The notes: a model not told the origin generated them from the sequence alone. Positions 21,602 to 51,630 are shown, counted from the first letter of the stretch. The stretch is 64,000 nt of DNA from an uncultured Verrucomicrobiota bacterium (GCA_903863295.1 CAIPBM010000091.1:1-64000); one strand, 5' to 3'. Numbers and translations are program-made.

Positions 21602-21647
21602 ATTCAGTGGGGAGCGGTGACCTTGAGGTTAACATTCATGCCAGATG

Positions 21648-24985: not shown

Positions 24986-24987
24986 CC

Positions 24988-26969: not shown

Positions 26970-29282
26970 TTATGCACGGATCGCCGCACGAACGCACGCC
27001 ACAGTTCCTTGAATTTCCAATAATCGCTGACTGTTGGTTAAATGGAAAAGATCGCTTTCGAGATAGCTGTCAAATTTCTGCGTGGGTTGCATGGGAAGGT
27101 GTTCAGCCAAAGCCAGGGGATCGTGAGTGCCATTTGTAACTTGGTCAAAATGATTGTGGATTTGCTCCAATGAAACGTCCCGGTAGAAAAGAGACAACCG
27201 ATCAGCCGCTACGCTAAGACCTTTTAGTTTGGCCAGTGCCCAGAGTGTGTTGTGGATTTTGGATCCGGCCCAAGGGAAAAATCGGACGCCCTTGTCTTCG
27301 ACGACAAATCCGGTTCCACCGACCGCGCCAGAAAGCTTGGCTAGTTGCCTCGCCGCACCAAGAAGCAACTTGGCGTTATCATCAATATAAGCGGGGACAT
27401 CCTGCCGCTCCAGGAGCAGCTTCATTTGCCGGGCAATTTTGTCTCCGGTGCCCATTCCAGAGGAAGCGAAATAGGGAGGCTTGAGGTTGTTCGAGGGAAG
27501 GACGACAACGGTTAGTTCGGCCAGGATTACGTCCATCACCACCCAACGTCGACCGCCTAAAAGTAAGTTCTCTCCCTTAGGTGGAACGCGATCAGGCGGA
27601 ATCTTGCCGATGGCTTCACCCTGATACTCGACCTTCAATTCCTCCTGCCCCATGAATGCCGCATAGAAATCCCAAGACGAAGTAACAAATTCACCTTGGG
27701 TACCCACAATGAGAGTATTGGGTGGGACTGAATCCAGGAGCGAGCACTTGAGCAGACATTTTAGGACCCGCTGAAAAATATCCGGGGTCACTTTCCGGAA
27801 GGGCCCCTTTTTGACCAAGGCATCGAATAGGGCTTGGGCGGGCATACCACCCGTCTGGGTCAAATGACTAAGGATTTGGTGAATCAACGTGCTGAGATTC
27901 AAGTCATGAACGTCTGGTGATTCGAGCCACTTCACCAGCATGAGCTCCACCATGGCGATGCTCTGGATCAAATCGGGAAAGAGGAGATCTGTCAGCGAGC
28001 AGTCGCCATGCGGCGTAAAGTCGCGGCAATAGGCGCGAAAGACGGCAGATTCTCCCTGGCCGCGTCCTGACCGACCCAGTCGTTGAACCATAGAGGAGAC
28101 GGTCCAAGGCGCTTGGACCTGGCCGACGGCTTTAATGCCGGATATGTCGATGCCCATTTCCAAGGTGCTTGAGCAAATGGCGGTTGTGGGCACGCCGCTT
28201 TTCAGATGCTCTTCAGCTTCGTCCCGTTGACTCCGTGAAAGAGAGGCGTGATGCACCACGAACGGATCGCGTTGAGAGCCGGCCTTGGCAAACACCTGGT
28301 GAAGTCGGTCGGCTAAAACTTCCACTGTGCTTTTTGAATTGCAGAAGACGAGGTTGGTGGAACTAGAGAATTTTTGAGCAACATCGTTACTAATCATGTC
28401 GATGTCATCCGGACGCGGGAGGGAGTAGGCGTCCAGTTCTTCCTGCGTAAGGAGGCCTTTCAACGGTTTCCCGCTCAAAAAGTGTCCCTGTTTCACGCGG
28501 GAAACCAGACCGGGAATTTTCTCAAGAGGTATGCCAAAAAACTGCACTCGCTTTTCCTCGTCCTCGGTGCATTGAGGGCGAATAAAGGCTTTTACCGTCA
28601 GTCGGATTTGCCGCGTGGTGGTGGGATTTTCAATCAGACGAACCCGCTCCGGATGATCGATATCGAGAAAGCGCTTCGCCACATCATAATCTCCCAAGGT
28701 CGCCGATAGTCCGGCCATGCGAGGCTGACATCCTGCCTGGGCACAAACTCGCGAAAATAGACTCTGAAGATGGATGCCGCGCACGTTGTCCAGAAACGAG
28801 TGGAGTTCGTCCACGACGATGTAGTCCAAGGCGCTAAACAGTTGCGGTACATTTTTCCCACGGCGCAGGAAGATGGCTTCCAGCGACTCAGGTGTGATTA
28901 ACAATATGCCGCCGGGCTGACGAATAACCGACAGCTTTTCCGAGGCTCCCACATCCCCATGCCATCGATGCACCGGTATACCCAGATTCTCGCATAGGTC
29001 TTCCATGCGACGGAATTGATCATTGATGAGGGCTTTCAACGGCCCGACATAGAGTGCTTGAACGGAGGGAGTCGATTTTTCCGCAATCTTCGAAATGATG
29101 GGAAGGAAGGCAGCTTCTGTCTTTCCGCCGGCAGTCTGGGCACTGACGAGGAGATGGTCATCGGACTGGTAAATCGCCCTGATCGATTCGGTCTGGATCG
29201 GGTGCAGCCCCGTCCAGCCTTTGTCATAGATCGTCTTTTGAACTCCCGGAGACAAGAGCTCGAAAGCCGAGACCTCACTCAC
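26970..29282 (-). CDS. Lhr-like DEAD/DEAH-box helicase (BrxHI-like)
   Basis: The 770-residue superfamily 2 helicase has AQTAGGKT (48-55, Walker A), DELH at 158-161 (Walker B) and the HRxGRxxR-type end of the second domain (RLGRSGRG). It continues with a winged-helix and Lhr-type C-terminal region. Lhr-core helicases of this type are named BrxHI when they occur in BREX type 2 loci beside a BrxD-like ATPase. The ATG overlaps the stop of that ATPase gene (ATGA). Confidence 0.88.
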   Translation of the reverse strand: MSEVSAFELLSPGVQKTIYDKGWTGLHPIQTESIRAIYQSDDHLLVSAQTAGGKTEAAFLPIISKIAEKSTPSVQALYVGPLKALINDQFRRMEDLCENLGIPVHRWHGDVGASEKLSVIRQPGGILLITPESLEAIFLRRGKNVPQLFSALDYIVVDELHSFLDNVRGIHLQSLFSRVCAQAGCQPRMAGLSATLGDYDVAKRFLDIDHPERVRLIENPTTTRQIRLTVKAFIRPQCTEDEEKRVQFFGIPLEKIPGLVSRVKQGHFLSGKPLKGLLTQEELDAYSLPRPDDIDMISNDVAQKFSSSTNLVFCNSKSTVEVLADRLHQVFAKAGSQRDPFVVHHASLSRSQRDEAEEHLKSGVPTTAICSSTLEMGIDISGIKAVGQVQAPWTVSSMVQRLGRSGRGQGESAVFRAYCRDFTPHGDCSLTDLLFPDLIQSIAMVELMLVKWLESPDVHDLNLSTLIHQILSHLTQTGGMPAQALFDALVKKGPFRKVTPDIFQRVLKCLLKCSLLDSVPPNTLIVGTQGEFVTSSWDFYAAFMGQEELKVEYQGEAIGKIPPDRVPPKGENLLLGGRRWVVMDVILAELTVVVLPSNNLKPPYFASSGMGTGDKIARQMKLLLERQDVPAYIDDNAKLLLGAARQLAKLSGAVGGTGFVVEDKGVRFFPWAGSKIHNTLWALAKLKGLSVAADRLSLFYRDVSLEQIHNHFDQVTNGTHDPLALAEHLPMQPTQKFDSYLESDLFHLTNSQRLLEIQGTVACVRAAIRA

Positions 29283-30601
29283 ACGGTCACCGCTGTAAGG
29301 TCATCGTCAGTGACTGGGCCACTCTTCGCAATTTCCTCCTCCACGGAAGGAGGAAGATCGGCTCCACCGCCCATGAACTCTCCAGCCAAAATCTGCTGCC
29401 AAGTTACGCCCGGGTTCTGATCGAGGAGATTGAGCAGACCGATAAATGACCGGATGACTTTTCGCGGGGTCTTAAATGTTTCAGCACCGAGCGCCTCGTT
29501 GGCTTTTTGCAGAATCTGCGCGATGGCTTCATCCGGAACGGCTATTTTGGTGAGGTCGCCTGACGCATGAACCAGTCGGATATTTTGCAGGAGAACAAAG
29601 AGCTCTTCGGGCGTCAGGGTCGTGAGCTTGATGACTGAGCCCGAAAGGTCTATCAAGCCACCTTGAGCTAAGGAGTTGCTGGCTAGGCGCGAACGGAGCG
29701 CCTCATACGAAAAGAGGCCGCGACGGGTGTCTTCCACACATTCCACCGTACCTGCGAGGATAAATCCGAGGTGGGAAGCACCTCCCTGGAGACAGTCGTT
29801 GATGATCGCGAGAATCGCCTCAAAATTTGCCTGTCGAACCATGCGGTTTGGAAGACGATGGGAAAGAACAACCAACTCATCAATATTGACGAGTATGCCC
29901 GCACCTCCTGCAAGGACGGAAAATGCGGCGATCAGTTTCAAATTCTCGTAGAGGTCGTCTCCCAAAATGGAACGGACGCCCAACGCCTGGCGCGCTTCCG
30001 TCTTGGTGGGATATTCCGCCCGCAGCCATTTGACGGCTGAGGCCTTCAGTCCGTCATCTGCCTTAGCAAAACCTTCGTAGTATTTGCCCAATACTTCCGA
30101 AAAATCAAAACCACCAGTCAAGGAGTGAAGGCTGGAAAGTGACGTCAGGATTTTGGTTTTGACGGCTTCATCTGATCCCCCAGTGGATTTGACCTGAATC
30201 TGGATCGAGGCAATCCAGGACTCGATGAGTCCGATCAGTCCCTCTCCCTCAGGTCGTGCTTTGGTCGCCAAATTTCGGATTAATTCCGAGAAAAGTGCTT
30301 GGGCTTCACCGCCCTTGGAATAGATGCGTCTCGCCATCGTGATGTCGGCCTGCAAAACGAGCAGGTTCTTTTGCAAGGCGAGGCTCTTCACCAGATTGAG
30401 AAAAAAGCTTTTTCCGCTGCCATAGTTGCCCTCGATGATGCGGAAGGCCGCGCCGCCGTCTGCAATGCGGTCGATATCGCCGAGCACCGCGTTTACCTCC
30501 TGCTTACGACCAACCTGAATCAAGTGCAGGCCGAGCTTGGGAACTAAGCCTGCCTGGAGGGATTGGAGAATGGCATCTCGCTCACGCCTTTTGATGATCA
30601 T
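29279..30601 (-). CDS. BrxD-like P-loop ATPase (DUF2791)
   Basis: The 440-residue protein has Walker A GNYGSGKS (58-65) and a Walker B-like GILVNIDEL (about 235-243). The order of motifs matches the BrxD/DUF2791 family known from BREX. Position 2 of the three-gene operon; both of its ends overlap neighbours by ATGA. It presumably works with the helicase on DNA and needs ATP. No BREX methylase, PglZ or BrxC/PglY gene is in the window, so this is not a BREX locus. Confidence 0.85.
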   Translation of the reverse strand: MIIKRRERDAILQSLQAGLVPKLGLHLIQVGRKQEVNAVLGDIDRIADGGAAFRIIEGNYGSGKSFFLNLVKSLALQKNLLVLQADITMARRIYSKGGEAQALFSELIRNLATKARPEGEGLIGLIESWIASIQIQVKSTGGSDEAVKTKILTSLSSLHSLTGGFDFSEVLGKYYEGFAKADDGLKASAVKWLRAEYPTKTEARQALGVRSILGDDLYENLKLIAAFSVLAGGAGILVNIDELVVLSHRLPNRMVRQANFEAILAIINDCLQGGASHLGFILAGTVECVEDTRRGLFSYEALRSRLASNSLAQGGLIDLSGSVIKLTTLTPEELFVLLQNIRLVHASGDLTKIAVPDEAIAQILQKANEALGAETFKTPRKVIRSFIGLLNLLDQNPGVTWQQILAGEFMGGGADLPPSVEEEIAKSGPVTDDDLTAVTV

Positions 30602-32886
30602 AGTGCTTGAGGTAGGAGTTCGGTATGGATGGTGACGGGGTCTTCCCCTTCAATCAAGAAATCTCCCAATGCATCGTCGGCCCAGGCGTTGATTACGTCA
30701 GCTACGGCCACCGGCATGAGATTGTATTTAGCCGCCAATTTCATGAAATCGGCCTTGGCCCACTGAGGTTGAGCGATTAATTCCTGGTAGAGGGGCAAAT
30801 AATTGGGATTCAACGCAGGAGCGGCGTCCGACGGGGCTGCGACCACCGGGTTGGCTGCTGGGGGCGCTTCTGCCTTCGCTTCTTTGTCCTCCATGATACC
30901 GGAAAGCTTGGCCACAACCTCTCTAGTTTCTTCGGCAATAGCCGCCACCCGGCTCATATCGAGCTTTAATCCACCGCCTCCAGCCTGTCCTTTGATGGTT
31001 TCACCAACGGGTTGTGGGTCAGCGTGGAGCACGGTTACTTCAGCCGATGATGCCGTGTACTTGCAAACGATTCTGGCCGAGGCCTCGGAGGGGAGGTCAA
31101 TAACCTGGAAAATTCTCTCAAGTACCTCGCGCTCGGTTTTTTCCAGAGTCCCATTCTTGATTCCCACGTAAACAGCCACTTCCACAGCCCATTCCTTGAA
31201 CTCAGGCTTGAGCTGGCTAACAACCTTCGGGAGTGCACGCCAAAGACAATCTCCGTTGACCAAGAGCGCTTTGAGTAACGCATCGAATCGGGCCGCATCT
31301 ACGGGAGACAATTTGAAAGCCTCTTGTACACATTGCCACGTGCGATCCACTTCGTAGGGCTCTGGACGACCGTCTGCCACAGCGACCAGACCGCACATCG
31401 CCAAGATGGCCGCTGCACCTTGATATGCAGACGATGTCTTCAGGTCTGCTGGATTCTGGGGAACATACAGTGCGATGGCATCGGTCGGACGATAGGATTG
31501 GGCCAGAATCGACGCGTCCGGTTCAACTGCATAACCACCTTCCGCCAACAAGGTGATCAGACTGCGGCTGTCGCCGAGATTGGCACGAGCGCCAGGAATG
31601 CTGCCGATCAGTTTTTGGATATCCTGCACTTGGAACACAGCAGTCCCATTTGCCTGCGTGATACGTTGTTTCAGAATAGCAATCCATCCGGACTCACTCG
31701 AAGCCTGACTCGCCTCGGCACTTGCAGGAGTCACGGGTCGATATTTTTGCAGAGGATCGGAAGACCGGCCTCCCAAGCCTCGAAAGCATTCTTCGGGATC
31801 GACCTTGGTGAGATTAAGTGGCGAAAGGGCAGTTGGCGTCGTGTTCAGGGCCAGGATACAGGTCCGGTCGACGTTGCCGGTTGCCGGGTTCGTGGCCGAG
31901 ACATAGCCGTTTAAGCCAACTCCATTGATAACCTGGGCGGCATCAGCTGCAAAAACTTCCTGAATAGTGCGGAGGCAGACTTGAAAGACGAAGCTGGCGT
32001 ATAATTCGTTCGCAGCTTTGACCGACAGGGTTGATTCGGTAAAGGAATCCTTGGCTTTGACATATTTGACGCTCTCGATCCTGGGAAAATCATCAAAGGC
32101 GGGAAGGTCGTAGTTGATGATCAACACCCGTTTCACCCCGTTAAAATCGAGATCGAAGCTTTTCTCGAAGAATTCGGGATAGGAAGATTGCTCAAGAATC
32201 CTGGTATTGAATTCGACGACTTCTTGGGCACTTCCGGATTTGTACCGATGAAGTTTTAAATCCGCCGCTGCCACTGCTTTTGCCTGTGTTAGTTCAAAGG
32301 CATGCTTGTCGTTCTTCCATTTTTCAATTCGAGCAAGGTAATCAGCCTCCAGTCGGTCATTGCTCTGACCGAGTTCCGCGCAGGTACTTTCCCAACTGGA
32401 TAGTGCCTGTTGATAAAGCCGCTGACTTTCCGCGACCTTCTTATCGTGAAGTGGCCCCACCAATTTATCCAATATGCCAAAGTGGGGAGTAAATGCGGCG
32501 TCAGTAGGCTGCGGTTGGACTGGAAAATTGTGGTAGGTCACTTCCGGCTGCGTAATCGGATAGGGAACGTGATTTCGTCTGTCATCCCAGGAAAAAGAGA
32601 ACCGACGCCCGACGCTTGAAGACAATGTATTTCGAATGGACGTGAGAATTCCCTGGGCCTCTATCGTCCTGCTTTCCGCTTCTTCCTGAGCTTCCTGCAA
32701 ATGGGCGGCTTTGGTGGCGCTGGCCTGGCGCTTGGCATTCGCCGCGCGTTGCCGGGCATACATGTCGTCCCAAATCCGGTTCTGGGCATCCACCTTTTGC
32801 TGTAGTTCGCTTCGGGTTTCCGCCTTAATCACGCGCGACCGGCCCAAACCCGGATGCGTGAGCGTGTAGGAATAGTAGTAGCTCAT
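30598..32886 (-). CDS. TerB-domain protein (TerB-N/TerB/TerB-C)
   Basis: The 762-residue protein has a charged N-terminus with a coiled coil (about 20-110) followed by a middle domain around NYDLPAFDDFPRIESVKYVK. It has a TerB-like helical domain (about 500-620; AMCGLVAVADGRPEPYEVD) and a TerB-C domain (about 690-760; LPLYQELIAQPQWAKADF, DVINAWADDALGDFLIEGED). The series TerB-N/TerB/TerB-C is known from tellurite-type stress loci with a helicase and an ATPase. The preferred ATG at 32886 starts MSYYYSYTL; 13 more residues are open upstream. First gene of the operon. Confidence 0.8.
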   Translation of the reverse strand: MSYYYSYTLTHPGLGRSRVIKAETRSELQQKVDAQNRIWDDMYARQRAANAKRQASATKAAHLQEAQEEAESRTIEAQGILTSIRNTLSSSVGRRFSFSWDDRRNHVPYPITQPEVTYHNFPVQPQPTDAAFTPHFGILDKLVGPLHDKKVAESQRLYQQALSSWESTCAELGQSNDRLEADYLARIEKWKNDKHAFELTQAKAVAAADLKLHRYKSGSAQEVVEFNTRILEQSSYPEFFEKSFDLDFNGVKRVLIINYDLPAFDDFPRIESVKYVKAKDSFTESTLSVKAANELYASFVFQVCLRTIQEVFAADAAQVINGVGLNGYVSATNPATGNVDRTCILALNTTPTALSPLNLTKVDPEECFRGLGGRSSDPLQKYRPVTPASAEASQASSESGWIAILKQRITQANGTAVFQVQDIQKLIGSIPGARANLGDSRSLITLLAEGGYAVEPDASILAQSYRPTDAIALYVPQNPADLKTSSAYQGAAAILAMCGLVAVADGRPEPYEVDRTWQCVQEAFKLSPVDAARFDALLKALLVNGDCLWRALPKVVSQLKPEFKEWAVEVAVYVGIKNGTLEKTEREVLERIFQVIDLPSEASARIVCKYTASSAEVTVLHADPQPVGETIKGQAGGGGLKLDMSRVAAIAEETREVVAKLSGIMEDKEAKAEAPPAANPVVAAPSDAAPALNPNYLPLYQELIAQPQWAKADFMKLAAKYNLMPVAVADVINAWADDALGDFLIEGEDPVTIHTELLPQAL

Positions 32887-33051
32887 AAGCGTCCCGCAGT
32901 AATAGGTGCCAATCCATACCACCATGAAGCGAGACGCGAAAGCCTAGATCGCGCGGGCTAAATCAATGCGCAATGTTGATAAATTTTCAATGGGCTGCCG
33001 GACAGCTTGAAAAAATGCGATCTTTGGGAAAACGTGAGATTGTTGGCGGGC

Positions 33052-33159
33052 TATCTCACCCCTTATCTCACCCCTTATCTCACCCCTTATTTTACCCCTT
33101 ATCTTATCCCTTATCTTACCCCTTAACTTACCCCTTATCTTACCCCTTATCTTATTCCT
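33052..33159. repeat. 12-bp minisatellite, nine units
   Basis: Nine consecutive units of TATCTTACCCCT or a close variant (three are TATCTCACCCCT) fill 108 bp. The sequence is upstream of the TerB operon and 193 bp right of its first codon, inside a stretch of about 630 bp without a confident gene. A minus-strand ORF at 32944-33198 reads it as a tandem IRGK/IRGE peptide, but this looks like a by-product of the 12-bp period. Confidence 0.85.
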
Positions 33160-33870: not shown

Positions 33871-34749
33871 GTGAATAATATCATCTTCCATTATTTACAG
33901 AGGCTTCCGGAAGATGATCGGTTACGGCTAGAAAGCGGCGTTCTAGCCGGAGAGGTCAGCGCCGCCATGCTGGCTGATACCGATCCCATGTTTCTCCCCT
34001 GCCCCCTGACGTTCGAGATGGCGGCATGGCGGCGGGCCACTGCCTTCCGATTTGAAACCACAGCGGAAGACATCTTGGAGGGCTGCCTTCAATACATGCG
34101 TTACTTGCTTTCCAGACCAAGCCAAGGCTGCGCGACTTTTGAGGAAGAATTATACAACCGCGCCACACGGTCCAACCGACTGGACTACCGTCTCGGCCTG
34201 ATCAGCGCACAGATCGACGAGCTAACCGTTAAAATCAAAGGACAAATCGGCCACTTGAAAGAGCAAGCGCCATCCGTCGTCAACCGTCTACGCCCCATGG
34301 TCATTGATTCGTCCATTTTCAAGCGCGAGGAAATGGCCATCCCCCCGCCCGACGATGAGGAGACGGCCTGGATCAACGAAATGCTTTCCAGCAAGACAGC
34401 CGGACAAGACCTGCATCAATATGTGGCAGCGGACCTGGCGGCATTTGTGGTCACAACGGCGCAAGCTTGGTCTCTATCGCCGGAGGCTGTCATCCGGGAA
34501 GCCGTTTGGATCAGTGCATGGGTTATGGCTAATTCTGGAGGACTCGGCGGGAACAATTTCCGCGAAGAACTGTTTGTCCGCCAAAGCGAGGTGGACAGCG
34601 TCATGCTTCAACTCGATCAATTCGTCAGCGACCTGGAATCTCATGTCCCCCAGGCCGAAGCTCTCGCGGCGCACCTTACCGAAAAGTCGGAATCGATCGT
34701 TGCCGTTTTCCATCAAATGCATTCGCATCCTGTCTCAAAGAAGGATTGA
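33871..34749 (+). CDS. unrecognised helical protein
   Basis: The 292-residue, acidic and largely helical protein starts with GTG. Two stretches rich in Leu and charged residues (about 95-135 and 225-270) look like coiled coils. No signal peptide or membrane segment, and no motif that I recognise. It ends 2 bp before the ATG of the next gene, with the end of this gene (AAGGATTGA) doubling as a ribosome-binding site. Confidence 0.65.
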   Translation: MNNIIFHYLQRLPEDDRLRLESGVLAGEVSAAMLADTDPMFLPCPLTFEMAAWRRATAFRFETTAEDILEGCLQYMRYLLSRPSQGCATFEEELYNRATRSNRLDYRLGLISAQIDELTVKIKGQIGHLKEQAPSVVNRLRPMVIDSSIFKREEMAIPPPDDEETAWINEMLSSKTAGQDLHQYVAADLAAFVVTTAQAWSLSPEAVIREAVWISAWVMANSGGLGGNNFREELFVRQSEVDSVMLQLDQFVSDLESHVPQAEALAAHLTEKSESIVAVFHQMHSHPVSKKD

Positions 34750-34751
34750 CC

Positions 34752-36500
34752 ATGGCACCTCCTCGAAAAAAACGTCTCCGCAAGACGGGAGCCTTTCGCC
34801 CCGTTCATTTCGGCAAAACCATCCCCTACGTGGATCGTGAGCGATTGAATAAGAACCTGGCACGATTTTTCGACGGCGAGCGTGACATCAGGGTTATTGG
34901 TTTCCTTCGTCCGCAAATTGAGTTGGAGGCCGATCGTTCTTTTGAACTTCTCAACAGAAAGGAACTTCTCGAAGCGATTCAGGCGGTCTGGAAGGCGAGC
35001 CTGCCCATGAACCGAGAAGCGGCGCTCGGCTACATTGTGACGATCCAACTTGTCCCCCAAGCCTATCAGGAGATGGTCGCCGCCCGAATCCCGATAGCGG
35101 ATAATTTCACTTATTTGATTTGTCGTGAGTTGCGTATTCTTGGCCAGAAAATCCACCTCGGTGAACATCTGAGTTATCTTTTGCGCATCGACGACGGTCC
35201 CAACGAAGCAACCGCTAAGCTCCTTTTGTTTCCTGCCACAAACCGTGGTACACTGTTGAATTTTCCCAAGCCAGACACGACCGTTTCGGAGAAGCGTGTG
35301 AACATCGATTGGCGCGTTGAAATCAAGAATCGCGTGGAAAACCAAGGGGCAGATTTCTACCGATCAACGGTGACTCATCCTATTCGGCCCTCCTTTCATT
35401 CAGCGGATGTTCTGGCCCAAAACCGATTGATCACCCAGGCAGCCCATCAGCTATGTGAAATCGACATTGCTTCGGATATAGCCGCAAAAAGTCCCGTCGA
35501 GGAAGTTGATCTTTGGCTTCGTACGCAAGCTCTTCGCCGCCGCTTTCTGGAGTCTCCGGATAACAATCGTCGGGTCATCCTTGAAGGAGCCTATCAAGAA
35601 CGCCAAGGCCGGTTTGACCAACTTTCGATTGATGAAGCAAAAATCAGATTAAGGTCGCAAACTCTCGTTCAGGCCAAGATTCGTCAAAGCCTTTACGATT
35701 TGATCGGTGCAGTTATGCCGTGGCAAATCGGCGCAGCCTTTGAAACCAATGAACGCACTTTGATTAAGGACTTTTTCCGCTTTAAGACCATTTTGTGCCG
35801 AGACCATCGTTCGAAGTGGTCCTTCCCTGTTTTAGCCACGACAATCCCTGCAACTAATGCTGATCCGGCTCCCGCCGCTGCGGCCCGACGATTGAGACTT
35901 CTGGACCAACGACTGAGAGATTTCCGCAAACTGCAAAAAGACCGCCAAGTGGAGATTGAAAAAAACGTGAGTCGGCAATCCGCCGCTAGGCGGGAACAAT
36001 TAGCTATCTTTGGCGCCACGCGGCTTCAATTTGATACGACGGACTTGACCATTGTGGATTGCCGGCACCGTAGCCAGGGTTCGCGTCCCCTTTACCTTCT
36101 CCGCTTTCACGATTGGACCAGCATGAGCCGTCCAACTCCCGTGTTACTTCGTCGTCTGGAGGAAATGATCCAGGAACGGGCGGCGAAGGTTCAGGATGCC
36201 TGGGCTAAAGCCGTAAGAAATTCAGAACCCAGAGCTCCCGGGCATTCGCCCGGAGCCAAAGACGTCATCAGCCTGTCACCCAAAGGCTGTCATTTAGATT
36301 TTACAACCACCATGGACATTCGCCGTGAGCAGTCCAAGTCCTGTTCCGATTTAAACCGTGAACGCCTGGTCAGCGAACTGAAGAATAATTTCGAGGCGAT
36401 TCAGCTTCTCGTTAATCCCAGCCATAATAATCGCATTGTCCGAAAAGCATTCGTACCAGTCTACGACTGCGATCAGGCGATGGAACGAATCGAGTTTTAA
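34752..36500 (+). CDS. unrecognised large basic protein
   Basis: The 582-residue soluble protein begins MAPPRKKRLRKTG, a strongly basic N-terminus. Later parts include a coiled coil (about 370-420, ARRLRLLDQRLRDFRKLQ) and a C-terminal domain with the sequence FVPVYDCDQAMERIEF. I recognise no catalytic motif. I preferred ATG at 34752 over TTG at 34746 because AAGG is placed correctly. The basic start and coiled coils fit a nucleic-acid or filament-associated role, but this is a guess. Confidence 0.65.
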   Translation: MAPPRKKRLRKTGAFRPVHFGKTIPYVDRERLNKNLARFFDGERDIRVIGFLRPQIELEADRSFELLNRKELLEAIQAVWKASLPMNREAALGYIVTIQLVPQAYQEMVAARIPIADNFTYLICRELRILGQKIHLGEHLSYLLRIDDGPNEATAKLLLFPATNRGTLLNFPKPDTTVSEKRVNIDWRVEIKNRVENQGADFYRSTVTHPIRPSFHSADVLAQNRLITQAAHQLCEIDIASDIAAKSPVEEVDLWLRTQALRRRFLESPDNNRRVILEGAYQERQGRFDQLSIDEAKIRLRSQTLVQAKIRQSLYDLIGAVMPWQIGAAFETNERTLIKDFFRFKTILCRDHRSKWSFPVLATTIPATNADPAPAAAARRLRLLDQRLRDFRKLQKDRQVEIEKNVSRQSAARREQLAIFGATRLQFDTTDLTIVDCRHRSQGSRPLYLLRFHDWTSMSRPTPVLLRRLEEMIQERAAKVQDAWAKAVRNSEPRAPGHSPGAKDVISLSPKGCHLDFTTTMDIRREQSKSCSDLNRERLVSELKNNFEAIQLLVNPSHNNRIVRKAFVPVYDCDQAMERIEF

Positions 36501-40575: not shown

Positions 40576-41544
40576 ATGGATTCGATAAACAATGATCTTA
40601 AAAATGATTTAACCTGGTCATCGGCCAGATACAGCACGCTTTTACGGTGCGAGAAAAAGTACTATTTCCAGCACATCGGGGGTTGGGGCGGCTGGGACAA
40701 ATCGGCGCCTGATTTGACCCAGGAAATCTACCACCGCAAATATCTGACGGCGGTCCACCCGGAGATCGGGCTGTTGGTCCATGATCGCATCGCTTGTATT
40801 TTTGACCGGGCGCTGACAGGCCACTCGCCCAACGTCGCAGACGAAATCAGGAAGGCACAAAATGCTTTTGTCACTTTCATCCGTCGCAGCGTCGTGCGGC
40901 CTCTTGATGCGGTGACCCGAAAGTCCCGTAAACTGCTGCGCGACGAATTAGGCCAGCCGCTCACCGATCAGGCCGTGGCCGCGTTGACTGAGCACATCGA
41001 GGTTTTGTTGAAGGGATTCTTTGCCTTTGCGGACGTCAAGGCATTACTCGAACACCCGGAAGATTTGATTCCGCAGTTGCTCGATCCGCAAAATTTCGCC
41101 ATCGGGCATGAGTTAGGCGTACCCGCTCGTCTGCGGACCGATATCGTCTGGGTGACAGAAGATTCAGTGGTGGTTGGGGACTGGAAAGGTGGACGTCCAA
41201 GCCCTTCTCACCGCGATCAGGCGCTGACGTACGATCTCTATGTCCGAGCTCTGCTCCAGCTCCCTCCGGAAGAAACTGTTGAGGTTCGATTTTATTATTT
41301 GGGCGAGCAGAAAATCGCGACATTTCGATTCACAGATGAAGAGCGAGAACTGCACAAATGGCAAATTGGCGAAGAATGGGAAACGATCAAAAGCTATAGC
41401 CAAAGTCCCACCATCAATATCGCTCCACCGGAAAAGTTCCGGGCCCGTGTGACTAAAAGCTGTGCGGAATGTTCCTTCCAATCGATCTGCCCCGAATTTA
41501 TTCGACAGCACCGAAATCAAGTCGTCGTGGAGGCGGAGCTATGA
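40576..41544 (+). CDS. Fe-S PD-(D/E)XK nuclease, first of a pair
   Basis: The 322-residue protein belongs to the RecB/AddB/Cas4 nuclease group. C25 (LLRCEKKYYF) and C296-x2-C299-x5-C305 near the end form the typical four-cysteine Fe-S site. The nuclease core has D (TDIVWV), GDWKGG and a Q-x3-Y motif (QALTYDLY). These enzymes trim single-stranded DNA. Overlaps the ATPase gene by ATGA and heads a seven-gene operon. Confidence 0.88.
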   Translation: MDSINNDLKNDLTWSSARYSTLLRCEKKYYFQHIGGWGGWDKSAPDLTQEIYHRKYLTAVHPEIGLLVHDRIACIFDRALTGHSPNVADEIRKAQNAFVTFIRRSVVRPLDAVTRKSRKLLRDELGQPLTDQAVAALTEHIEVLLKGFFAFADVKALLEHPEDLIPQLLDPQNFAIGHELGVPARLRTDIVWVTEDSVVVGDWKGGRPSPSHRDQALTYDLYVRALLQLPPEETVEVRFYYLGEQKIATFRFTDEERELHKWQIGEEWETIKSYSQSPTINIAPPEKFRARVTKSCAECSFQSICPEFIRQHRNQVVVEAEL

Positions 41545-43541
41545 GTCAGCCACGCTTTCTCAATGGAAGTGGGGAGGCTCCACGTAATCCGGTGGAGTTC
41601 GCCTTCCTCGAACCAGATGTTCTCGACGATACGATTATCAAACTTCCTTGCTACGAACCCAGCGGTTTGAAAATCGAGGTAACAGCCAGGCAGGCCTTGA
41701 GGCACCTGCTCATCACCGGAAGTTCGGGGTCGGGCAAGTCGACGATCATCAATCGCCTCTTTCATGACCTGATTGGTTACAAAACCAAGACCGGCCAATC
41801 TATCGGGCTTTTAATCCTCGATGCACAGGGAGATGGCACCGTGGAAAGAGTCCGACAGATCGCAGCGGAGGTTGGTCGCCCGGACGATGTTCGAGTTTTA
41901 TCACCGCAGGAAGGCTATCTTGATCCGTTGGGCGATCTCAACTCCTTCGCGGATTTGGACCGGGTGGTTTCCAAATTATTGTGCGCGACTGAAACCGCGC
42001 ATGATAAAGGATCCAACGCGTTCTGGTCTGAAAATACCCGACTGTTAATAGAATCCGCTTTGGCTGTGCTGCTGGTGACAGATAAAAGCATTTCGTTACA
42101 CCAGACTCTTTGCTTCATCTCCGAACTTCTAGTTCAAGGGCAACACTGGAGTGCGGATGTCGAGGCCCGGGTGGAACGGTTTCGGTCATCTCTTGTCAAG
42201 ACATCGGACCACCTGTCACCGGGAATCTCCGCCAAATTGCAACTTGTCGACTCGTCGCTCAAAGGTTGGAAAGCCCTTGATTCGAGGACTCGCGGAATTC
42301 TTCAATCGTGCGTGGCGGTGGTGGTGGCTCCGTTTCTTTCCGCCAACTCTCTCATCTACTGGGATGAAGCCAAAGGCGATCAGGTTCGTCCTGCCGAAGC
42401 GCTGGATGGAAAAATTATTGTCGTCAGCGTGAAGGGCTCGACCGAGCCTGAAACCGCCGCGCTTATTTCCCGGCTGGTAAAGATTGATTTTTACCGGGCG
42501 GCCCAAGAACGAATCAGTCCCTGTGACTCACCTCTTACCGGTTGCATTCTCGATGAACTGCCGCTGGCCGTTACCGTCGGTTCGTCCCGCTGGTCAGACG
42601 TTTCTAATCTCGCGACCCTGCGAGGAAAAGGCGTTTTCGTCATCGCCGCCACCCAGGGTTTGAGCAACCTCGACCTCGTTATTGGTCCAGAAAAGACCAA
42701 GGCGCTTCTGGTAAATTTCTCCAATCTCATTTTTCTTCACTCACAAGAGACCGGTTACCATTATCATTTTGCGGACAAGATTCTGGGCATCAAGCCCGCT
42801 CCTCCAAGAGCTGCCAGCTTTCTCAGTGACGTCGGCAATCTGCTTCATCTGCAAACTCTCGGTACCGCCTCTTCCGGCGAGCAGGTATGCCCTCCAGGCG
42901 CATTGTCGCGACTCGAGGCACATCAAGCCTACGTTGCCTTGGCTGACGGATTCAGATCTCTCGATCCTGTCTGGCTTGCCCCCTTGTATTTTCCACAAAA
43001 AACGACCCCAATCAAAATATCTCCGGATCTCGATCTGGCCGCACTGCGATCCGCGCCCTGCTTGACGGTAAACCAATCGGAGGTTCCTCTAGCCAAACTA
43101 TTGGCGCTCCGACTCTGGCACATTCTGAGGGAACGTCCACGCCAAGTCCGCGCTGCCAAGACGACAACACTGAAAGACTTCAAAACAAAGATGCGGCGCC
43201 ATTCCCGTCTCCGCACGGGTAAAGATCTTGAAACCATCCCGGCGTCCTGGCGGTTGGCCTGTATCAACCTGACCAGGAAACTGCCCAAGGGCGTTCACCT
43301 TGCCGCGCTGAGTTTTGTGGCGGGCGTTCTGGATCCAGAATTTGTGGCCTTCGAGGTCCTTCCTGGAGGCGTGGAAGATCTTCAGCGATTGACGAGGCGA
43401 TGGCAGTTGTCGGTTTATCCTTCGATCTTGCGGAGTCCCAATGCGACTGACCGGAGATGGTTAAAACTCCATTTTCCTCACCTTTGTCCGAGGACAAATC
43501 CAAAATCCTTAAACAAACAAATCGACCAGGAAAACCCATGA
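41541..43541 (+). CDS. VirD4/TraG/HerA-like DNA-pumping ATPase
   Basis: The 666-residue protein has Walker A GSSGSGKS (60-67), Walker B IGLLILDAQGD and a second acidic strand CILDELPL. A glutamine in VIAATQG fits the sensor position of VirD4/HerA ATPases. No transmembrane segment is clear, so it differs from typical coupling proteins of conjugation. It probably moves DNA toward the flanking nucleases. The start is ATG at 41541 behind GGAGGCGGAG and overlapping the previous stop; the end overlaps the next gene by ATGA. Confidence 0.85.
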   Translation: MSQPRFLNGSGEAPRNPVEFAFLEPDVLDDTIIKLPCYEPSGLKIEVTARQALRHLLITGSSGSGKSTIINRLFHDLIGYKTKTGQSIGLLILDAQGDGTVERVRQIAAEVGRPDDVRVLSPQEGYLDPLGDLNSFADLDRVVSKLLCATETAHDKGSNAFWSENTRLLIESALAVLLVTDKSISLHQTLCFISELLVQGQHWSADVEARVERFRSSLVKTSDHLSPGISAKLQLVDSSLKGWKALDSRTRGILQSCVAVVVAPFLSANSLIYWDEAKGDQVRPAEALDGKIIVVSVKGSTEPETAALISRLVKIDFYRAAQERISPCDSPLTGCILDELPLAVTVGSSRWSDVSNLATLRGKGVFVIAATQGLSNLDLVIGPEKTKALLVNFSNLIFLHSQETGYHYHFADKILGIKPAPPRAASFLSDVGNLLHLQTLGTASSGEQVCPPGALSRLEAHQAYVALADGFRSLDPVWLAPLYFPQKTTPIKISPDLDLAALRSAPCLTVNQSEVPLAKLLALRLWHILRERPRQVRAAKTTTLKDFKTKMRRHSRLRTGKDLETIPASWRLACINLTRKLPKGVHLAALSFVAGVLDPEFVAFEVLPGGVEDLQRLTRRWQLSVYPSILRSPNATDRRWLKLHFPHLCPRTNPKSLNKQIDQENP

Positions 43542-44428
43542 AATTTTACACCCCGACTGCCCGCAAAGAATATCTCCGCTGCCCGAAGCGCTTCTATTTC
43601 CGATACTTATTTAAACCCGAAGATCCAACGGAAAAGGAACAACACCGTAGTCTCCGAAAACTTTATGGTATTCGCGAACTTGCCGGACATTTGATCCATG
43701 GGGCCATCGCTGGTGAGGTTCGGGCCTATGCCGATGGCAATATGTGGAACTATGAAAACGCAGGGAAAAGATGCCGCGAACGGTTTCTCGACGTCGTTTG
43801 CCGGTCCTATGCGGAGGAACCAGGTGTTCTGCTGGACGATTTACAGCTCGCGGAAGCTTATAATGGATGTGGCATCCAAGAACTTCGGGACGACATTACC
43901 TTTTGGCGCGATGTCATTCCGATCATGATTGAAAATGCCTGGCGCGCCTGCTTCACTCTCGGTCTCCAACAAAGCAAGAGCGGTTATTCCCTTTTCGCAG
44001 AGCACAAAGTTGAACACAAGATCGGCGATAAAACGCATCACCTTGTTTTCGACGTGATGACCCAAAGTTCCGCCCGGTCCATGGTCATCGACTGGAAAAC
44101 GCATGAAATCGATAATGAAGACATCTACCAAGTTCAAAGATATTTGCGGTGTCTCCACGAAACGCAGGGAATTCCAACCCTGCGTCTTTTCGGCTTCGCG
44201 GTCAATCTTCTGACCGAAGAAATCACAAGCATCACCTATAATCCTTTTCCCCAAAGTACCGGAGGTTATTCAGCCTTGGCCCAACGAGCCCAATCGACAA
44301 GAGTTACCACCCAAGATCCTTATCACGCCAGTCCGCATGTATCTCTTTGCCGACGGTGCCCCTACGCAGCCCTCTGCCCGGATCGGGTGACGTCCGTTCT
44401 TCCCGAATTCGATGCTCTAGCGGCCTGA
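43538..44428 (+). CDS. Fe-S PD-(D/E)XK nuclease, second of a pair
   Basis: The 296-residue protein repeats the architecture of the first nuclease: C15 (YLRCPKRFYF), core MVIDWKTHE and QVQRYLRCL, then C271-x2-C274-x5-C280. The sequences are only distantly alike, which suggests two specialised subunits. Both flank the ATPase, and all three overlap by ATGA, so they are likely one complex. Confidence 0.87.
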   Translation: MKFYTPTARKEYLRCPKRFYFRYLFKPEDPTEKEQHRSLRKLYGIRELAGHLIHGAIAGEVRAYADGNMWNYENAGKRCRERFLDVVCRSYAEEPGVLLDDLQLAEAYNGCGIQELRDDITFWRDVIPIMIENAWRACFTLGLQQSKSGYSLFAEHKVEHKIGDKTHHLVFDVMTQSSARSMVIDWKTHEIDNEDIYQVQRYLRCLHETQGIPTLRLFGFAVNLLTEEITSITYNPFPQSTGGYSALAQRAQSTRVTTQDPYHASPHVSLCRRCPYAALCPDRVTSVLPEFDALAA

Positions 44429-44617
44429 CCCTCAGGGCGTCGACTCCTTTTCTCGCTGAACGCGAGAACTTCTCAACCCGAGGATTTCGAATCCTTGCGC
44501 GGCGGCCTTTACCGTCATGGACTTCCCTTGGGCGTTGTGATGGACCTTTTTGGCGAACACCACACTCACCTCGCGAGACGTATCAGCAAAATATGCAAAC
44601 AGAAGAAAATCAAACTT

Positions 44618-45778
44618 ATGAAACTGATTATTCTTCACCCCGACAAAGTCACCCGTGAAATCCTCTGCAGCCATGTCAGGTCACTTGATCATGCCGTCGT
44701 GCATGCATCCGCAAGTTCATTCCAGATCATGCACGATGTCGCAAAACACCGACCGCACCTTGTTTTGGCCGATGAACCGGAACTCCGCTTGCGCGCGCCC
44801 ATCCAGGAAACCCTCGAGAAAATGGGCCTGCATGTTCACATCCTTTGGATTCCAGCGCTGTCCGGGGACGACCTCAAAAAATGGGCTTCGGAGCAATTGT
44901 ACGCTTTGCGCCATGCGACCGCTCCCCGGCCCTTGTCTCCCTACACCGCCGATCAACGCCTGGTGATCCGGGACGATGCTTATGGCGTCTTCGAAGATGG
45001 GCTAAAGCGTAACTTTCCCGAAGTAGAGCCCGAAAATGATGCCGCTTTTGCCCACGAATTGGCCACCTATGCCCGTCACGTGGAAGGGGCGACCGCGCAT
45101 CATGCCGCCGCCCAGCATCATCTGCATCAAGTCATCGTGACGGATCAGGGTCTTCGAGTCGAGGCAACCTACCGGGCCATTCATTCGAGTCATAAGATTT
45201 TTTGGCTGCGGGAGCATATCTTTCGTTGGATCGGAGTCCTGGCCCACTACCTACCCGGAGTCGAGTTGGAATATCTGCCTCCCCCGGCACCGCCTTCTCC
45301 GAAGCTTGATTATCTTCACTATTCGTCGCCGCCGGAAAGTTGTTACGCGGCGGCAGCTCTTCTCATCCATGGGTTTAAGCCAAGCTGGATGCTTTCGCTG
45401 CGCTCGATCCTGGAGCAAAAGTTCATAGGGCAAGATGAAGAAACTCTCCTTCAGGAGACTCTGACTCTGGCCGGGTGGTCCTTCTTGTTACGTGAAATCG
45501 CCATCGCCCAGGTTCGGGTCATGCATCACGCCCTCAAGCTCGATCCTTCATTTTATACCGAAAAGCTTCCGGCCCGGGCGCTCCACCGCGCCACCGGGAT
45601 CTACTGCGACTTTTGGAATCTTCGGTATTTGCGGACGAATCCTCATCTCCTGATTCAGGTGGCCAAAGGAGTGGTCAAGGACCGCATTAGAGTCCCGGAC
45701 ACCGTGCCGGTCGTTCCGCATTTTCACCAGTTTCTCGGCACCACCATCCGCGAGATGAAAGGCCAGGGCAAAAAATAG
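44618..45778 (+). CDS. unrecognised protein with a receiver-like N-terminus
   Basis: The 386-residue protein opens like a response-regulator receiver (MKLIILHPDKVTREILCSHV and VLADEPELRL), but the usual phospho-Asp context is missing. The rest is helical without a recognised motif. A frame from 44495 is also open; I prefer ATG at 44618 because it begins the first strand of the fold. It is preceded by a 189-bp gap after the nuclease and followed by three co-translated genes. Confidence 0.6.
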   Translation: MKLIILHPDKVTREILCSHVRSLDHAVVHASASSFQIMHDVAKHRPHLVLADEPELRLRAPIQETLEKMGLHVHILWIPALSGDDLKKWASEQLYALRHATAPRPLSPYTADQRLVIRDDAYGVFEDGLKRNFPEVEPENDAAFAHELATYARHVEGATAHHAAAQHHLHQVIVTDQGLRVEATYRAIHSSHKIFWLREHIFRWIGVLAHYLPGVELEYLPPPAPPSPKLDYLHYSSPPESCYAAAALLIHGFKPSWMLSLRSILEQKFIGQDEETLLQETLTLAGWSFLLREIAIAQVRVMHHALKLDPSFYTEKLPARALHRATGIYCDFWNLRYLRTNPHLLIQVAKGVVKDRIRVPDTVPVVPHFHQFLGTTIREMKGQGKK

Positions 45779-45797
45779 GATTCGAAAACAAAAATTT

Positions 45798-46463
45798 ATG
45801 CAAATTCAAGCCCTCTACCAACCTGAAAGAAACTTATTGGTCACATCCTACGACAACGACGCGCAGAAGATTTTTGCGCGAGCGGCAAAGAAAACTGAGA
45901 TGTTCAGGCGCAAGCCCAGCGTTATCGGAGTTCTGAAAAGCCATCACCCTGAACGGCTAGATGATTTCGCCACGGGCTCGAACCTGCTCCGTCGCCTGGG
46001 CACAGAACCTTCCCGACAGGTTAGGTTGCACCCGGACGACGTGCGGAAAAGTTTTCACCTCGCTTGTTGCGCGTCGCTCTCTTTTGCCGAAAAGAGATTG
46101 CCGCTCGGAGGCTTGAAACAAGCGCTCATGCTCCTTTCCAGCATCACGCCAATAGTTCTGACGAAAAGATCCCTGCCTCCAACGGTGGAGGTTTTTGATC
46201 AAGACAAGATACCTCGGCCCGTCTGGCAGACCTTTGAGGTCATTCGCTCATGGCCCCATCCTGGGTCACCTATTCTTTTTGTCATCCAGCTTCATCAACT
46301 CCGATTTGAATTGATCAAGATCCCGCCAGGCAATGAACAGCTCGATGCCCTGAGTCAGGAGCTTACCCAAGCGACGCGGCTTTTTCGGGAGACCATGAAA
46401 TACCTCGCTAAAGCGGAGATCGATAAGCCGAAAACCAAAGGACAGAAGGGAAGCACCAAATGA
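45798..46463 (+). CDS. unrecognised protein
   Basis: The 221-residue soluble protein has no motif that I recognise. It is mixed alpha/beta with a Lys-rich end (KPKTKGQKGSTK). It begins 19 bp after the previous gene and overlaps the next by ATGA, and so belongs to the operon of the nucleases. Confidence 0.6.
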   Translation: MQIQALYQPERNLLVTSYDNDAQKIFARAAKKTEMFRRKPSVIGVLKSHHPERLDDFATGSNLLRRLGTEPSRQVRLHPDDVRKSFHLACCASLSFAEKRLPLGGLKQALMLLSSITPIVLTKRSLPPTVEVFDQDKIPRPVWQTFEVIRSWPHPGSPILFVIQLHQLRFELIKIPPGNEQLDALSQELTQATRLFRETMKYLAKAEIDKPKTKGQKGSTK

Positions 46464-47083
46464 AAAACAGCGTTTTGCGCCGGTATCATGTTCGCGCCTC
46501 GGTTCTGATTCTGGACGATCCTTTCCGTCTCGAATTGAGCATGCTCGCTGAATTGGCTGAAGGAATCCTCATCGCTCAAGATTCCACACTCTGGTCAGAT
46601 GCCTCCGCACCGACCTTCCTGGAGGAATTGAAGCAAGGCGCGTTGGCGCTGCAACGGATCGCCCGCTGCAGTCACACCGCCGTGGAAGACTTGGAGGCCC
46701 ACCAAGCTTTTATGGTTTGCCTACTGCTTGCCATGGGGGCTGATTGCCTTCCTAGTGAGCTCAGGACAGCTTTGTCTCAGGTCCTGTCATTGCTCGCCGA
46801 ATGCTGTCCCGTTCGCCTGGAGCCGATGGAGCTTCCGCCCCTCTCCAAACTCCGACGCGGGTTGCGTCATCAATCCATGGTGCGGAAACATTATGCAGAA
46901 ATGCTTTTGGCCTGCGCGCCCCACGGCCCGGGCTATAAAGTGACCCTGGCCGATGCCCTCCGCATTCTTCGAGCCATCGAGAGAGTGCCCAGCCTCGATC
47001 TTGCGCCACTCATTTTTTCCCTTCGCGAAGTCACCGAGGGATTCCGTGTCGCGCTCGATCAGATCGAAGCGGTCGAAGTATGA
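46460..47083 (+). CDS. unrecognised helical protein
   Basis: The 207-residue, mostly helical protein shows no known motif. Leucine-rich stretches near 60-110 could be a helical bundle. It starts by ATGA overlap with the gene before it and ends by ATGA overlap with the next gene. Confidence 0.6.
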   Translation: MKNSVLRRYHVRASVLILDDPFRLELSMLAELAEGILIAQDSTLWSDASAPTFLEELKQGALALQRIARCSHTAVEDLEAHQAFMVCLLLAMGADCLPSELRTALSQVLSLLAECCPVRLEPMELPPLSKLRRGLRHQSMVRKHYAEMLLACAPHGPGYKVTLADALRILRAIERVPSLDLAPLIFSLREVTEGFRVALDQIEAVEV

Positions 47084-47523
47084 AAATCATTCCTCTCAGT
47101 TCCCCTCAAATGAATCGTTGGAACCGCTGGCTCTGGACGAGCCATGGTCTGTCCGACCTTCCCGGCCATACGGTCTATCGTTGCGACATCGATTTTCCGA
47201 TGTACCTCACTCCTTGGATCAGTTTGGAGGGATTTTCCATGCGCCAAGAGCGGGATACCGGCCAGGTCTTGATTAGTTTGGACTTGGCTCCGGGGATACG
47301 TACCATCGCCAATTTGTGGGCCGGAACGGGGTTTCGGCACTCATGCTTTCGCCGCGCAGACCGATTCGACCAAGCCAGCCGTCAATTAATCGTCGCACTC
47401 CGGGAAGGACGGCTTTGGTGGGGAACCGAGACCTTAACCGATCTCCCTTTTGTTACCTCGGTCGCATATCTGTTTTCGAAAGATAACCTGAGCAAACTGC
47501 AGTTTGACCCACTTCGACCGTAA
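47080..47523 (+). CDS. unrecognised small protein ending the nuclease operon
   Basis: The 147-residue protein has several tryptophans and basic residues (RWNRWLWTSHG), giving a beta-rich impression. It overlaps the previous gene and ends 17 bp before the convergent ribbon-helix-helix-like gene. No function can be assigned. Confidence 0.6.
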   Translation: MKIIPLSSPQMNRWNRWLWTSHGLSDLPGHTVYRCDIDFPMYLTPWISLEGFSMRQERDTGQVLISLDLAPGIRTIANLWAGTGFRHSCFRRADRFDQASRQLIVALREGRLWWGTETLTDLPFVTSVAYLFSKDNLSKLQFDPLRP

Positions 47524-48485: not shown

Positions 48486-49040
48486 GTGGCCAGCCGCAAA
48501 GTACTCTATCCTGTAATCGTCTCTCCAGTCGCGGATCTGGAAACACAAGACGCGAAAACGTCCCAGAAGGAGAAGGCGCGCCCATTGGCAGAATTGCCGC
48601 CCCCGTCGCTGCTCCCGGGCGAGCATGCGGATGAGATCCCCCGCGTTCCGTCGCCGCAACCGGAGATGGGCAATCTGGTCCAGAAGATCCTCCTGGTGGA
48701 AAAGGAGATCGAAGAACTTTTTGCGTACGCTAAGAATTTTCGAGCCAGTCTCGAAATCAAGCTCGAGACGGCCAGCCTACTGTCACGCGAACAGGTGGCG
48801 GACATGCTGTACTCCAGCCTTTCGCAAGTCTACCGCTGGACCAAGTCCGGCGAACTGAGAGCCACCTGGCTGGACCAGCACCCGCGGTACCGGCCCAAAG
48901 ACATAGAGGCATTCATCGACTCCCGCGTCAAAAGCGGAAAGCCCACCAAGAAGGCTCAAAGTCCCTCCTGCCACACTTCAGGCAGTAGGTCCAAGCAAGT
49001 CCTGGAAAAGACCATAAACATGAAAAAGAGGCTTTCATGA
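48486..49040 (+). CDS. excisionase-like helix-turn-helix protein
   Basis: The 184-residue protein has a GTG start. Residues 93-145 have the winged helix-turn-helix pattern of excisionases and MerR-like proteins (SREQVADMLYSSLSQVYRWTKSGELRA). A proline-rich region precedes it, and the end is Lys-rich. It overlaps the integrase by ATGA, as xis-int pairs do. Confidence 0.75.
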   Translation: MASRKVLYPVIVSPVADLETQDAKTSQKEKARPLAELPPPSLLPGEHADEIPRVPSPQPEMGNLVQKILLVEKEIEELFAYAKNFRASLEIKLETASLLSREQVADMLYSSLSQVYRWTKSGELRATWLDQHPRYRPKDIEAFIDSRVKSGKPTKKAQSPSCHTSGSRSKQVLEKTINMKKRLS

Positions 49041-50386
49041 GTGCGCGTCTTCATTCCCGTCAACGTTACCGGCGAACCGTCCCGGTTTATGAATTTAAGG
49101 GCTATAAGATCCGGGTCTATCGAGCGAAGGACCGCTTTTCTGCCCAGTTCCGGGGAATCAAAAAAAGACGTGAACGATTCGAGCGGGACACGGAAGTAGA
49201 TGCGGTTGAAGCCGCCAAGGATCGGATCCGGGAATTGACGGATTCCGAGTTACAGCAATTGCAGCTCGAGGAAAAAGTAGCGTCTGATTTGTTAAAGCCG
49301 CATGGAATATCGATGATCGAAGCGGCGCGCCTAGTTGTGACCGCCTTTACGCACTTGGCTCCCTTTGGCAAAGGCATCATGGATGCCGTCAATTATTACC
49401 GCGAGCGGCACCAATGCCGACCGATCACGGTCACGGAACTGGTGAACGAATTGTTAGCGGTGAAGGAGAACGAAACCGGTGACAAGAATGTGAAAGATCT
49501 CAAGAGCAAGCTCCGTTACCGCTTTTGCAAAAAATTTGGCGATAGGCTCATGACCACCCTGACAGCCAACGAATTGACCGTCTACCTACGAGCGCTGGCG
49601 GGGAGCATGCGCAACCGACGCAATCATCACGCGGCCCTGGTGACTTTATTCAAGTTCGCCAAAGAATCTGAACGCCTGCCCAAAGACTTTCCGACGGAAA
49701 TGGATGGGATTAAAAAGCCGAAAGCGGAAGACCCCGAGATCAGCATTTTCTCCCCCGACGAATTGATGGCCTTGATTCGAGCGGGTCTCGCCATCAAATC
49801 ACGTGCACTGGCCGCTCTTTTGATCCAAGCGTTCACCGGCGTTCGCTCGGAGGAGTTGTGCCAGACCGATCCAAAAAAGGACCGTGCGAGATGGAAAGAT
49901 GTCCTGCTTGACGATTATCCCGAAATTCATATCCGCAAAAGCGTCTCGAAATTAAAAAAAGAACGCTTCGTCCCCATCCCACGCGCGCTGGCAAGCTGGC
50001 TTCGACTTTTGAAGCTGGAGGACGAAGACCCGATTTTCTCCACGAACGAGTTTGACGAGCAGTATAAGAAAATCGTCAAGAAAGCCGGTCTGAGCTGGAA
50101 AAAGAATGGCTTGAGGAAATCATTCTCGACCTATCACGCCGCACTCAGTGGCTCGCTCAAGATCACGGCCAAAGGTGCCGGGAATAGTGCGGCGATGCTA
50201 GATCGCTATTACAACAAAGCCACTCGCCGGGCACTCAAGCTGGCGAAAGTTTGGTTTGCACTGGGCCCCGATAAATTTGGAGAAGCAGTTCGCAATTATG
50301 TGACCGCCACCCGGCCAAAGCGCGCGAAAAATCATCCTGCCTCCAGTAAACGACCGAGCGATGACAAGCCCCGGACGGTTACGTGA
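49037..50386 (+). CDS. full-length tyrosine recombinase (integrase)
   Basis: The 449-residue protein has an N-terminal arm-binding part, a core-binding part and the catalytic domain: R270 (FTGVRSEEL), a basic strand (SKLKKERFVPI), a variant HxxR box (NGLRKSF, with Asn in place of His), and Y391/Y392 (LDRYYNK). This variant box is common in integrases of verrucomicrobial islands. The gene lies 1.2 kb left of tRNA-Ser, facing it, where the integrase of an element inserted in that tRNA would be expected. It is co-translated with the excisionase and the next gene. Confidence 0.9.
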   Translation: MSARLHSRQRYRRTVPVYEFKGYKIRVYRAKDRFSAQFRGIKKRRERFERDTEVDAVEAAKDRIRELTDSELQQLQLEEKVASDLLKPHGISMIEAARLVVTAFTHLAPFGKGIMDAVNYYRERHQCRPITVTELVNELLAVKENETGDKNVKDLKSKLRYRFCKKFGDRLMTTLTANELTVYLRALAGSMRNRRNHHAALVTLFKFAKESERLPKDFPTEMDGIKKPKAEDPEISIFSPDELMALIRAGLAIKSRALAALLIQAFTGVRSEELCQTDPKKDRARWKDVLLDDYPEIHIRKSVSKLKKERFVPIPRALASWLRLLKLEDEDPIFSTNEFDEQYKKIVKKAGLSWKKNGLRKSFSTYHAALSGSLKITAKGAGNSAAMLDRYYNKATRRALKLAKVWFALGPDKFGEAVRNYVTATRPKRAKNHPASSKRPSDDKPRTVT

Positions 50387-51540: not shown

Positions 51541-51630
51541 TGGCGGACGGGGAGGGATTCGAACCCTCGGTGGCTTTAACACCACAGCCGCTTTCCAGGC
51601 GACCGCACTAAACCACTATGCGACCCGTCC
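51541..51630 (-). tRNA. tRNA-Ser (anticodon GGA)
   Basis: Read on the minus strand, the 90-nt gene folds as a class II tRNA. The 7-bp acceptor stem is GGACGGG/CCCGTCC, the anticodon loop is CTGGAAA, the long variable arm is typical of serine, and the T-arm is GAGGGTTCGAATCCCTC. The CCA end is encoded. The 3' end faces the island to its left. Confidence 0.95.

Follow-up and report, generated by a model that had tools for sequence, protein, structure and literature searches.

A coupling-type ATPase gene joined to two Cas4-type nuclease genes on a genomic island of an uncultured Verrucomicrobiota bacterium

What does a DNA-pumping ATPase do when it is encoded between two Fe–S nucleases? The question is raised by seven genes on one strand at 40576-47523 of a 64,000-nucleotide stretch of DNA (the window) from an uncultured Verrucomicrobiota bacterium (GCA_903863295.1, CAIPBM010000091.1:1-64000). 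An earlier note had described them as an operon of two nucleases (here n1 and n2), an ATPase and four further genes (g4 to g7), and as a candidate for a new DNA-processing or defence complex. We find that the gene run is part of a genomic island of ~30 kb and not a free-standing complex (Table 1). With a probability of about one half, n1, the ATPase and n2, together with g4–g7, form a module for processing and exporting the DNA of a mobilizable island that carries defence genes and lies at a tRNA-Ser gene.

Table 1. Features of the gene run and of the surrounding island
Feature	Coordinates	Strand	Basis
Candidate left attachment copy, 14 bp of tRNA T-arm	21647..21660	.	putative
Shango-like SngC, SngB, SngA inside island	26970..32925	-	PADLOC 2.7e-209, 9.6e-150, 2.5e-25
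12-bp tandem array, 8.6 copies, unit TATCTTACCCCT	33052..33154	.	highest-scoring tandem repeat of window
Gene overlapping relaxase-like gene	33871..34749	+	
Relaxase-like protein without HHH or HEN catalytic motif	34752..36500	+	alignment to L008 relaxase
n1, RecB/Cas4-type PD-(D/E)XK nuclease, four Fe–S-type cysteines	40576..41544	+	PF12705 (Pfam) 4.4e-13; motifs
VirD4/TrwB/DotL-type coupling ATPase without membrane anchor	41541..43541	+	TrwB_AAD_bind 8e-12; profile; hydropathy
n2, second Fe–S PD-(D/E)XK nuclease	43538..44428	+	PF12705 (Pfam) 8.2e-9; motifs
g4, receiver-like N-terminal domain and helical C-terminal part	44618..45778	+	L027 homologue; model versus PDB
g5	45798..46463	+	relative's fragment after g4 in L027
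g6, ATGA overlaps with g5 and g7	46460..47083	+	
g7	47080..47523	+	
HTH_17 protein, excisionase-like	48486..49040	+	PF12728 4.9e-8
Tyrosine integrase of island	49037..50386	+	PF00589 1e-6; phrog_1 8e-25
tRNA-Ser, island's right border at tRNA 3' end	51541..51630	-	homology limit in sister genomes

Two coupled triplets with intact nucleases

All seven reading frames are present and intact, and their lengths far exceed those of shuffled sequence (longest 690 aa, against 269 aa in 50 shuffles of the region). The ATGA start/stop overlaps said to join n1, the ATPase and n2 are both there, at 41541 and 43538. Similar overlaps join g5 to g6 (46460) and g6 to g7 (47080), in line with the proposed coupling of three of the last four genes, but g4 stands apart. 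Its start, ATG 44618, was placed by a 52% homologue in locus L027; on account of the 190-bp gap between n2 and g4 and the 20-bp spacing of g4 and g5, the run is better described as two coupled triplets plus g4 than as an unbroken chain.

The two nucleases were predicted to be of RecB/Cas4 type, each with a C-x2-C-x5-C motif and a cysteine near residue 15–25, and these motifs proved intact in n1 (C25, H69, D189, D202-x-K204, Q215xxxY219, C296/299/305) and n2 (C15, D-x-K, QxxxY, C271/274/280). Both have the His, Asp, D-x-K and QxxxY residues of the RecB family and the C-x2-C-x5-C motif; each has the PD-(D/E)XK residues and four cysteines of a Cas4/RecB-type Fe–S nuclease. Judged by sequence, they are diverged paralogues (21% identical). 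We rejected an identity with MOBC relaxases, as PF12705 was the sole Pfam match of n1 and n2 at E ≤ 1. Single-sequence PDB searches with either nuclease found no related structure. The nearest relative of n1 (31%), in locus L083 (4975-10593), has an AAA ATPase gene immediately behind it and adjoins genes for a CBASS cyclase, an E2 protein, a phospholipase and a CapP-like protein; nuclease and ATPase are a candidate two-gene unit in a defence neighbourhood. A solitary n1 relative in L084 lies amid apparent housekeeping genes.

For g4, the suggested receiver-like start is backed by an AlphaFold model of only fair quality: response regulators make up nearly all of its best matches in the PDB, and none of the matches falls below E 9e-3. 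In L027, a fragment of a g5 relative follows the g4 homologue, and g4 relatives in L042 and L043 occur without a detectable ATPase. Family-profile searches gave no significant match for g5, g6 or g7. Nothing useful came from tblastn searches of plasmids with n1, n2 and the island's relaxase-like protein, from a phage tblastn with the ATPase, or from IMG/VR scans with n1, n2, g4 and the ATPase.

An ATPase of the coupling-protein lineage

The ATPase has a TrwB/VirD4/DotL-type nucleotide-binding domain, as expected of a type IV coupling protein. Its Pfam match to TrwB_AAD_bind (8e-12) is stronger than that to the HerA domain (6e-6), and a profile of six relatives matched DotL/IcmO (1.3e-13) and TrwB (1.8e-5) in the PDB. 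Such profile matches place it in the type IV coupling-protein lineage with a weak HerA resemblance, so that of the VirD4/HerA-like label first given to it, the VirD4 half stands whereas the HerA half is faint. By hydropathy, the ATPase has no N-terminal transmembrane segment (Kyte–Doolittle maximum 1.71, not N-terminal), nor have those of its relatives that were examined. Coupling proteins that lack this domain are a described subfamily (PMC7434980).

Several known systems resemble parts of the set. HerA–NurA likewise combines a DNA-translocating P-loop ATPase with nuclease partners, but the ATPase of the window is nearer to coupling proteins and its partners are two PD-(D/E)XK Fe–S nucleases; we rejected HerA–NurA membership on the weaker HerA match and the lack of any NurA match. 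In PADLOC profiles, n1 weakly matched the Cas4-like nucleases of Argonaute loci (Aga_Cas4-like_Nuc, 2e-10) and the ATPase, also weakly, mad8, the MADS ATPase (5e-10), but no Argonaute, methylase or other component of those systems was among the proteins scanned. We found no PADLOC match for g4–g7; a known PADLOC system spanning n1 to g7 was rejected because the matches, to n1, n2 and the ATPase only, were partial and the component set was incomplete. MOBC systems (CloDF13-type plasmids and two putative Streptococcus integrative mobilizable elements) also combine a PD-(D/E)XK-type nuclease with a VirD4-type ATPase that the mobilizable element itself encodes (PMC5704250, PMC8152469), whereas n1 and n2 are PF12705 proteins with Cas4-type cysteines outside the MOBC family, and the island has two nucleases and an ATPase without a membrane anchor.

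A genomic island at tRNA-Ser

In three genomes of the same genus, nadA and the tRNA-Ser gene are conserved and homology ends at the tRNA 3' end; on the left side, homology with family genomes extends to ~20.9 kb. The right border is clear. At the left, a 14-bp copy of the tRNA T-arm (21647) is no more than a candidate att site, because the acceptor-stem side is mismatched and the site has a second integrase fragment close by on its outer side. This fragment (21029-21601) encodes the catalytic domain of an integrase (190 aa), overlaps a SWIB gene at the island's left edge and is possibly a remnant of another element.

The cargo includes Shango-like genes, of which the SngA match spans only part of a 775-aa gene. 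A four-gene run at 22806-25730 (lamin-tail-domain protein, E1–E2-like ThiF protein, JAB protease and a small protein) resembles bacterial ubiquitin-like operons. The 12-bp tandem array separates the Shango-like genes from the relaxase-like region, and its units may be protein-binding iterons. Between the relaxase-like gene and n1, 37629-40016 encodes a passenger-repeat protein of 795 aa whose end weakly resembles PEP-CTERM.

Of the features of an integrative mobilizable element, the island has a site-specific integrase adjoining its target site, tRNA-Ser, but lacks a relaxase of its own with a catalytic motif. Its relaxase-like protein aligns with the MobA/VirD2-like relaxase of locus L008 (E 5e-9, shuffle Z 17), and no HHH or HEN motif is present, the catalytic histidines having been lost. 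The gene that overlaps it has a counterpart by position in L008, but the two products are not significantly similar. A search upstream of the relaxase-like gene for oriT-like inverted repeats was negative. An AlphaFold model of the protein (pLDDT 38) was too poor for a fold test. Among 374 genomes of the class, there was one other good match, in G039, on the same element as an ATPase relative; a third genome gave a match of 54 residues only. Integrative mobilizable elements without a relaxase are known, as are others that encode both a MobC relaxase and a VirD4 protein of their own (PMC5704250).

ATPase relatives in mobile elements

The ATPase was matched in 4 of 388 genomes of the phylum and in 10 of 384 of the class (its own genome counted), and further environmental assemblies named Limisphaerales and Verrucomicrobiales are among the matches listed. 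For the pattern scan of genome contigs, four alignment rows were used, a six-row alignment being too divergent. The n1–ATPase–n2 order occurred in no other genome of our surveys, which took in Verrucomicrobia-like genomes (assigned to the phylum by gene content and by what related records are called), and the combination looks new. Likewise, tblastn with n1 and n2 against the loci of ATPase relatives gave no match at E ≤ 0.1.

Several of the relatives, where enough flanking DNA is available, sit in mobile elements. L025 carries a NikA/MobC protein, a HEN relaxase and a serine recombinase with the ATPase; L008 an HHH relaxase, PcfJ-like proteins and DUF3987; L009 an integrase at tRNA-Ala and an MbeA-type relaxase; and L007 a RecD2-like helicase, a HipA-like protein (labelled by eye) and DnaB. 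All three relaxases (L008, L009 and L025) keep their catalytic motifs. The integrative elements in L007, L008 and L009, from Verrucomicrobia-type genomes, share the ATPase family and encode a DUF2779 Cas4-type nuclease within about 7 kb of it, and these three nucleases have N-terminal and internal cysteines in common. DUF83 corresponds to the Cas4 family. DUF2779 proteins contain a DUF83/Cas4-type PD-(D/E)XK domain (PMC3985635). We regard them as predicted functional analogues of n1 and n2 and do not claim orthology. In having an integrase adjoining a tRNA gene (L009) and a relaxase (L008 and L009), these elements recall the layout of the window's island. They differ from it in that each has one DUF2779 nuclease, which also contains an RNase H-like domain, and no n1 or n2, in that nuclease and ATPase are not always adjacent, and, in L008 and L009, in the intact relaxase motifs.

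A genome of the same genus, G512, retains at tRNA-Leu a remnant of the ATPase gene, the whole of g4 and fragments of g5 and of an integrase gene. This set links g4, g5 and the ATPase with an island that carries an integrase; n1 and n2 are undetectable there. In L033 (5297-8679), an ATPase relative with an interrupted frame lies directly behind a metallophosphoesterase-like gene, another type of nuclease beside the ATPase, called from a sub-threshold Pfam match and a motif.

Type IV secretion genes in the host genome

Two contigs of the host genome, C79 and C145 (loci L011, L012, L075 and L076), bear T4SS-type genes. C79 encodes TrbI/VirB10, a TrbL/VirB6-like protein, a VirB4-type ATPase, a PF02534 coupling protein and a TrwC relaxase, as well as a 1714–1716-aa helicase/methylase protein; C145 has similar T4SS genes, by ORF comparison only, and looks like a second copy of the C79 locus. 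A search of the genome with PF03135 (VirB4) was negative, and one with PF19044 led to the T4SS-bearing loci. From their gene content, both loci are possible helpers for the island.

Mobilization, defence or maintenance

We favour mobilization on the grounds of the ATPase lineage, the integrase and the relaxases next to ATPase relatives. This reading is supported by the relaxase homologue, the HTH_17 protein and the tRNA-Ser border of the island, the remnants in G512, the T4SS-type genes of the host, and the relaxases and recombinases that share an element with ATPase relatives (L008, L009 and L025). The literature on integrative mobilizable elements with their own VirD4 and on coupling proteins without a transmembrane domain also supports it, as does the kinship of MOBC relaxases with PD-(D/E)XK enzymes (PMC8152469). 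Several observations weaken it: the missing oriT-like repeat, the lack of n1 and n2 beside the ATPase elsewhere, the distance of 4 kb to the relaxase-like gene with opposite-strand genes between, the intact relaxase of related elements, which the nucleases need not replace, and the defence neighbourhood of the n1 relative in L083. Nor was a membrane partner of the ATPase identified.

As we envisage it, the integrase and the HTH_17 protein, both of recognizable family, would excise the island, and the two Fe–S nucleases would then act on its DNA. With its catalytic motif gone, the relaxase-like protein would be at most a DNA-binding partner. The anchor-less ATPase would gather the processed DNA and dock it on a type IV channel provided in trans, for example by either T4SS-bearing locus of the same genome; g4, through its receiver-like domain, may adapt or regulate the process.

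A bolder version, that the nuclease pair has replaced the dead relaxase in nicking and processing and, with a soluble VirD4-type pump, constitutes a new class of transfer initiation, seems to us improbable. The reading is weakened in that related islands keep an intact relaxase alongside a Cas4-type nuclease.

The strongest rival to mobilization, which we consider possible though clearly the less probable, is that the set is defence cargo: the ATPase would move along invading DNA, the two Fe–S nucleases would cut it at the pore, much as in a HerA–NurA system whose nuclease is split in two, and g4–g7 would sense or regulate. The Shango-like and E1–E2/JAB genes on the same island keep this role alive, as does the CBASS neighbourhood of an n1 relative, and the weak Aga_Cas4-like_Nuc and mad8 matches fit it as well. 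However, the coupling-protein lineage of the ATPase speaks against it, as do the mobile elements in which its relatives lie, three of which include a relaxase, and no known defence system was matched as a whole in PADLOC.

We think it unlikely that the genes instead serve replication, recombination or maintenance of the island, the nucleases resecting excised or incoming ends and the ATPase moving DNA within the cell, in the manner of AddAB/RecBCD and with no export. Cas4/RecB-type nucleases of this kind do process DNA ends, the ATPase lacks a membrane anchor, its relatives in L007–L009 are accompanied by DUF3987 proteins and by RecD2-like and DnaB helicases, and the L084 relative of n1 has apparent housekeeping neighbours. 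Against this, three ATPase relatives have a relaxase beside them, which points to transfer. A chance assembly of genes of differing origin in a decaying island, with no complex at all, would suit an arrangement met once, the lost relaxase motif and the decayed island of G512, but is very improbable given seven intact frames in two coupled triplets and nucleases that retain every catalytic and Fe–S residue checked.

The idea of a DNA-processing complex thus remains plausible, and no named system with the nuclease pair was found, but the ATPase is of conjugation descent. The earlier note would have given the idea up for a known conjugation or repair complex, or for parts found only apart in relatives; what we found goes half of that way, in that the ATPase lineage is of conjugation type and n1 and n2 lie beside no other member of the ATPase family found. 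Known mobile elements start DNA transfer, to our knowledge, with a short list of relaxase folds. An ATPase gene-coupled to two Cas4-type nucleases would mean either an Fe–S nuclease route to mobilization or, if the set is defensive, a conjugation pump recruited for defence.
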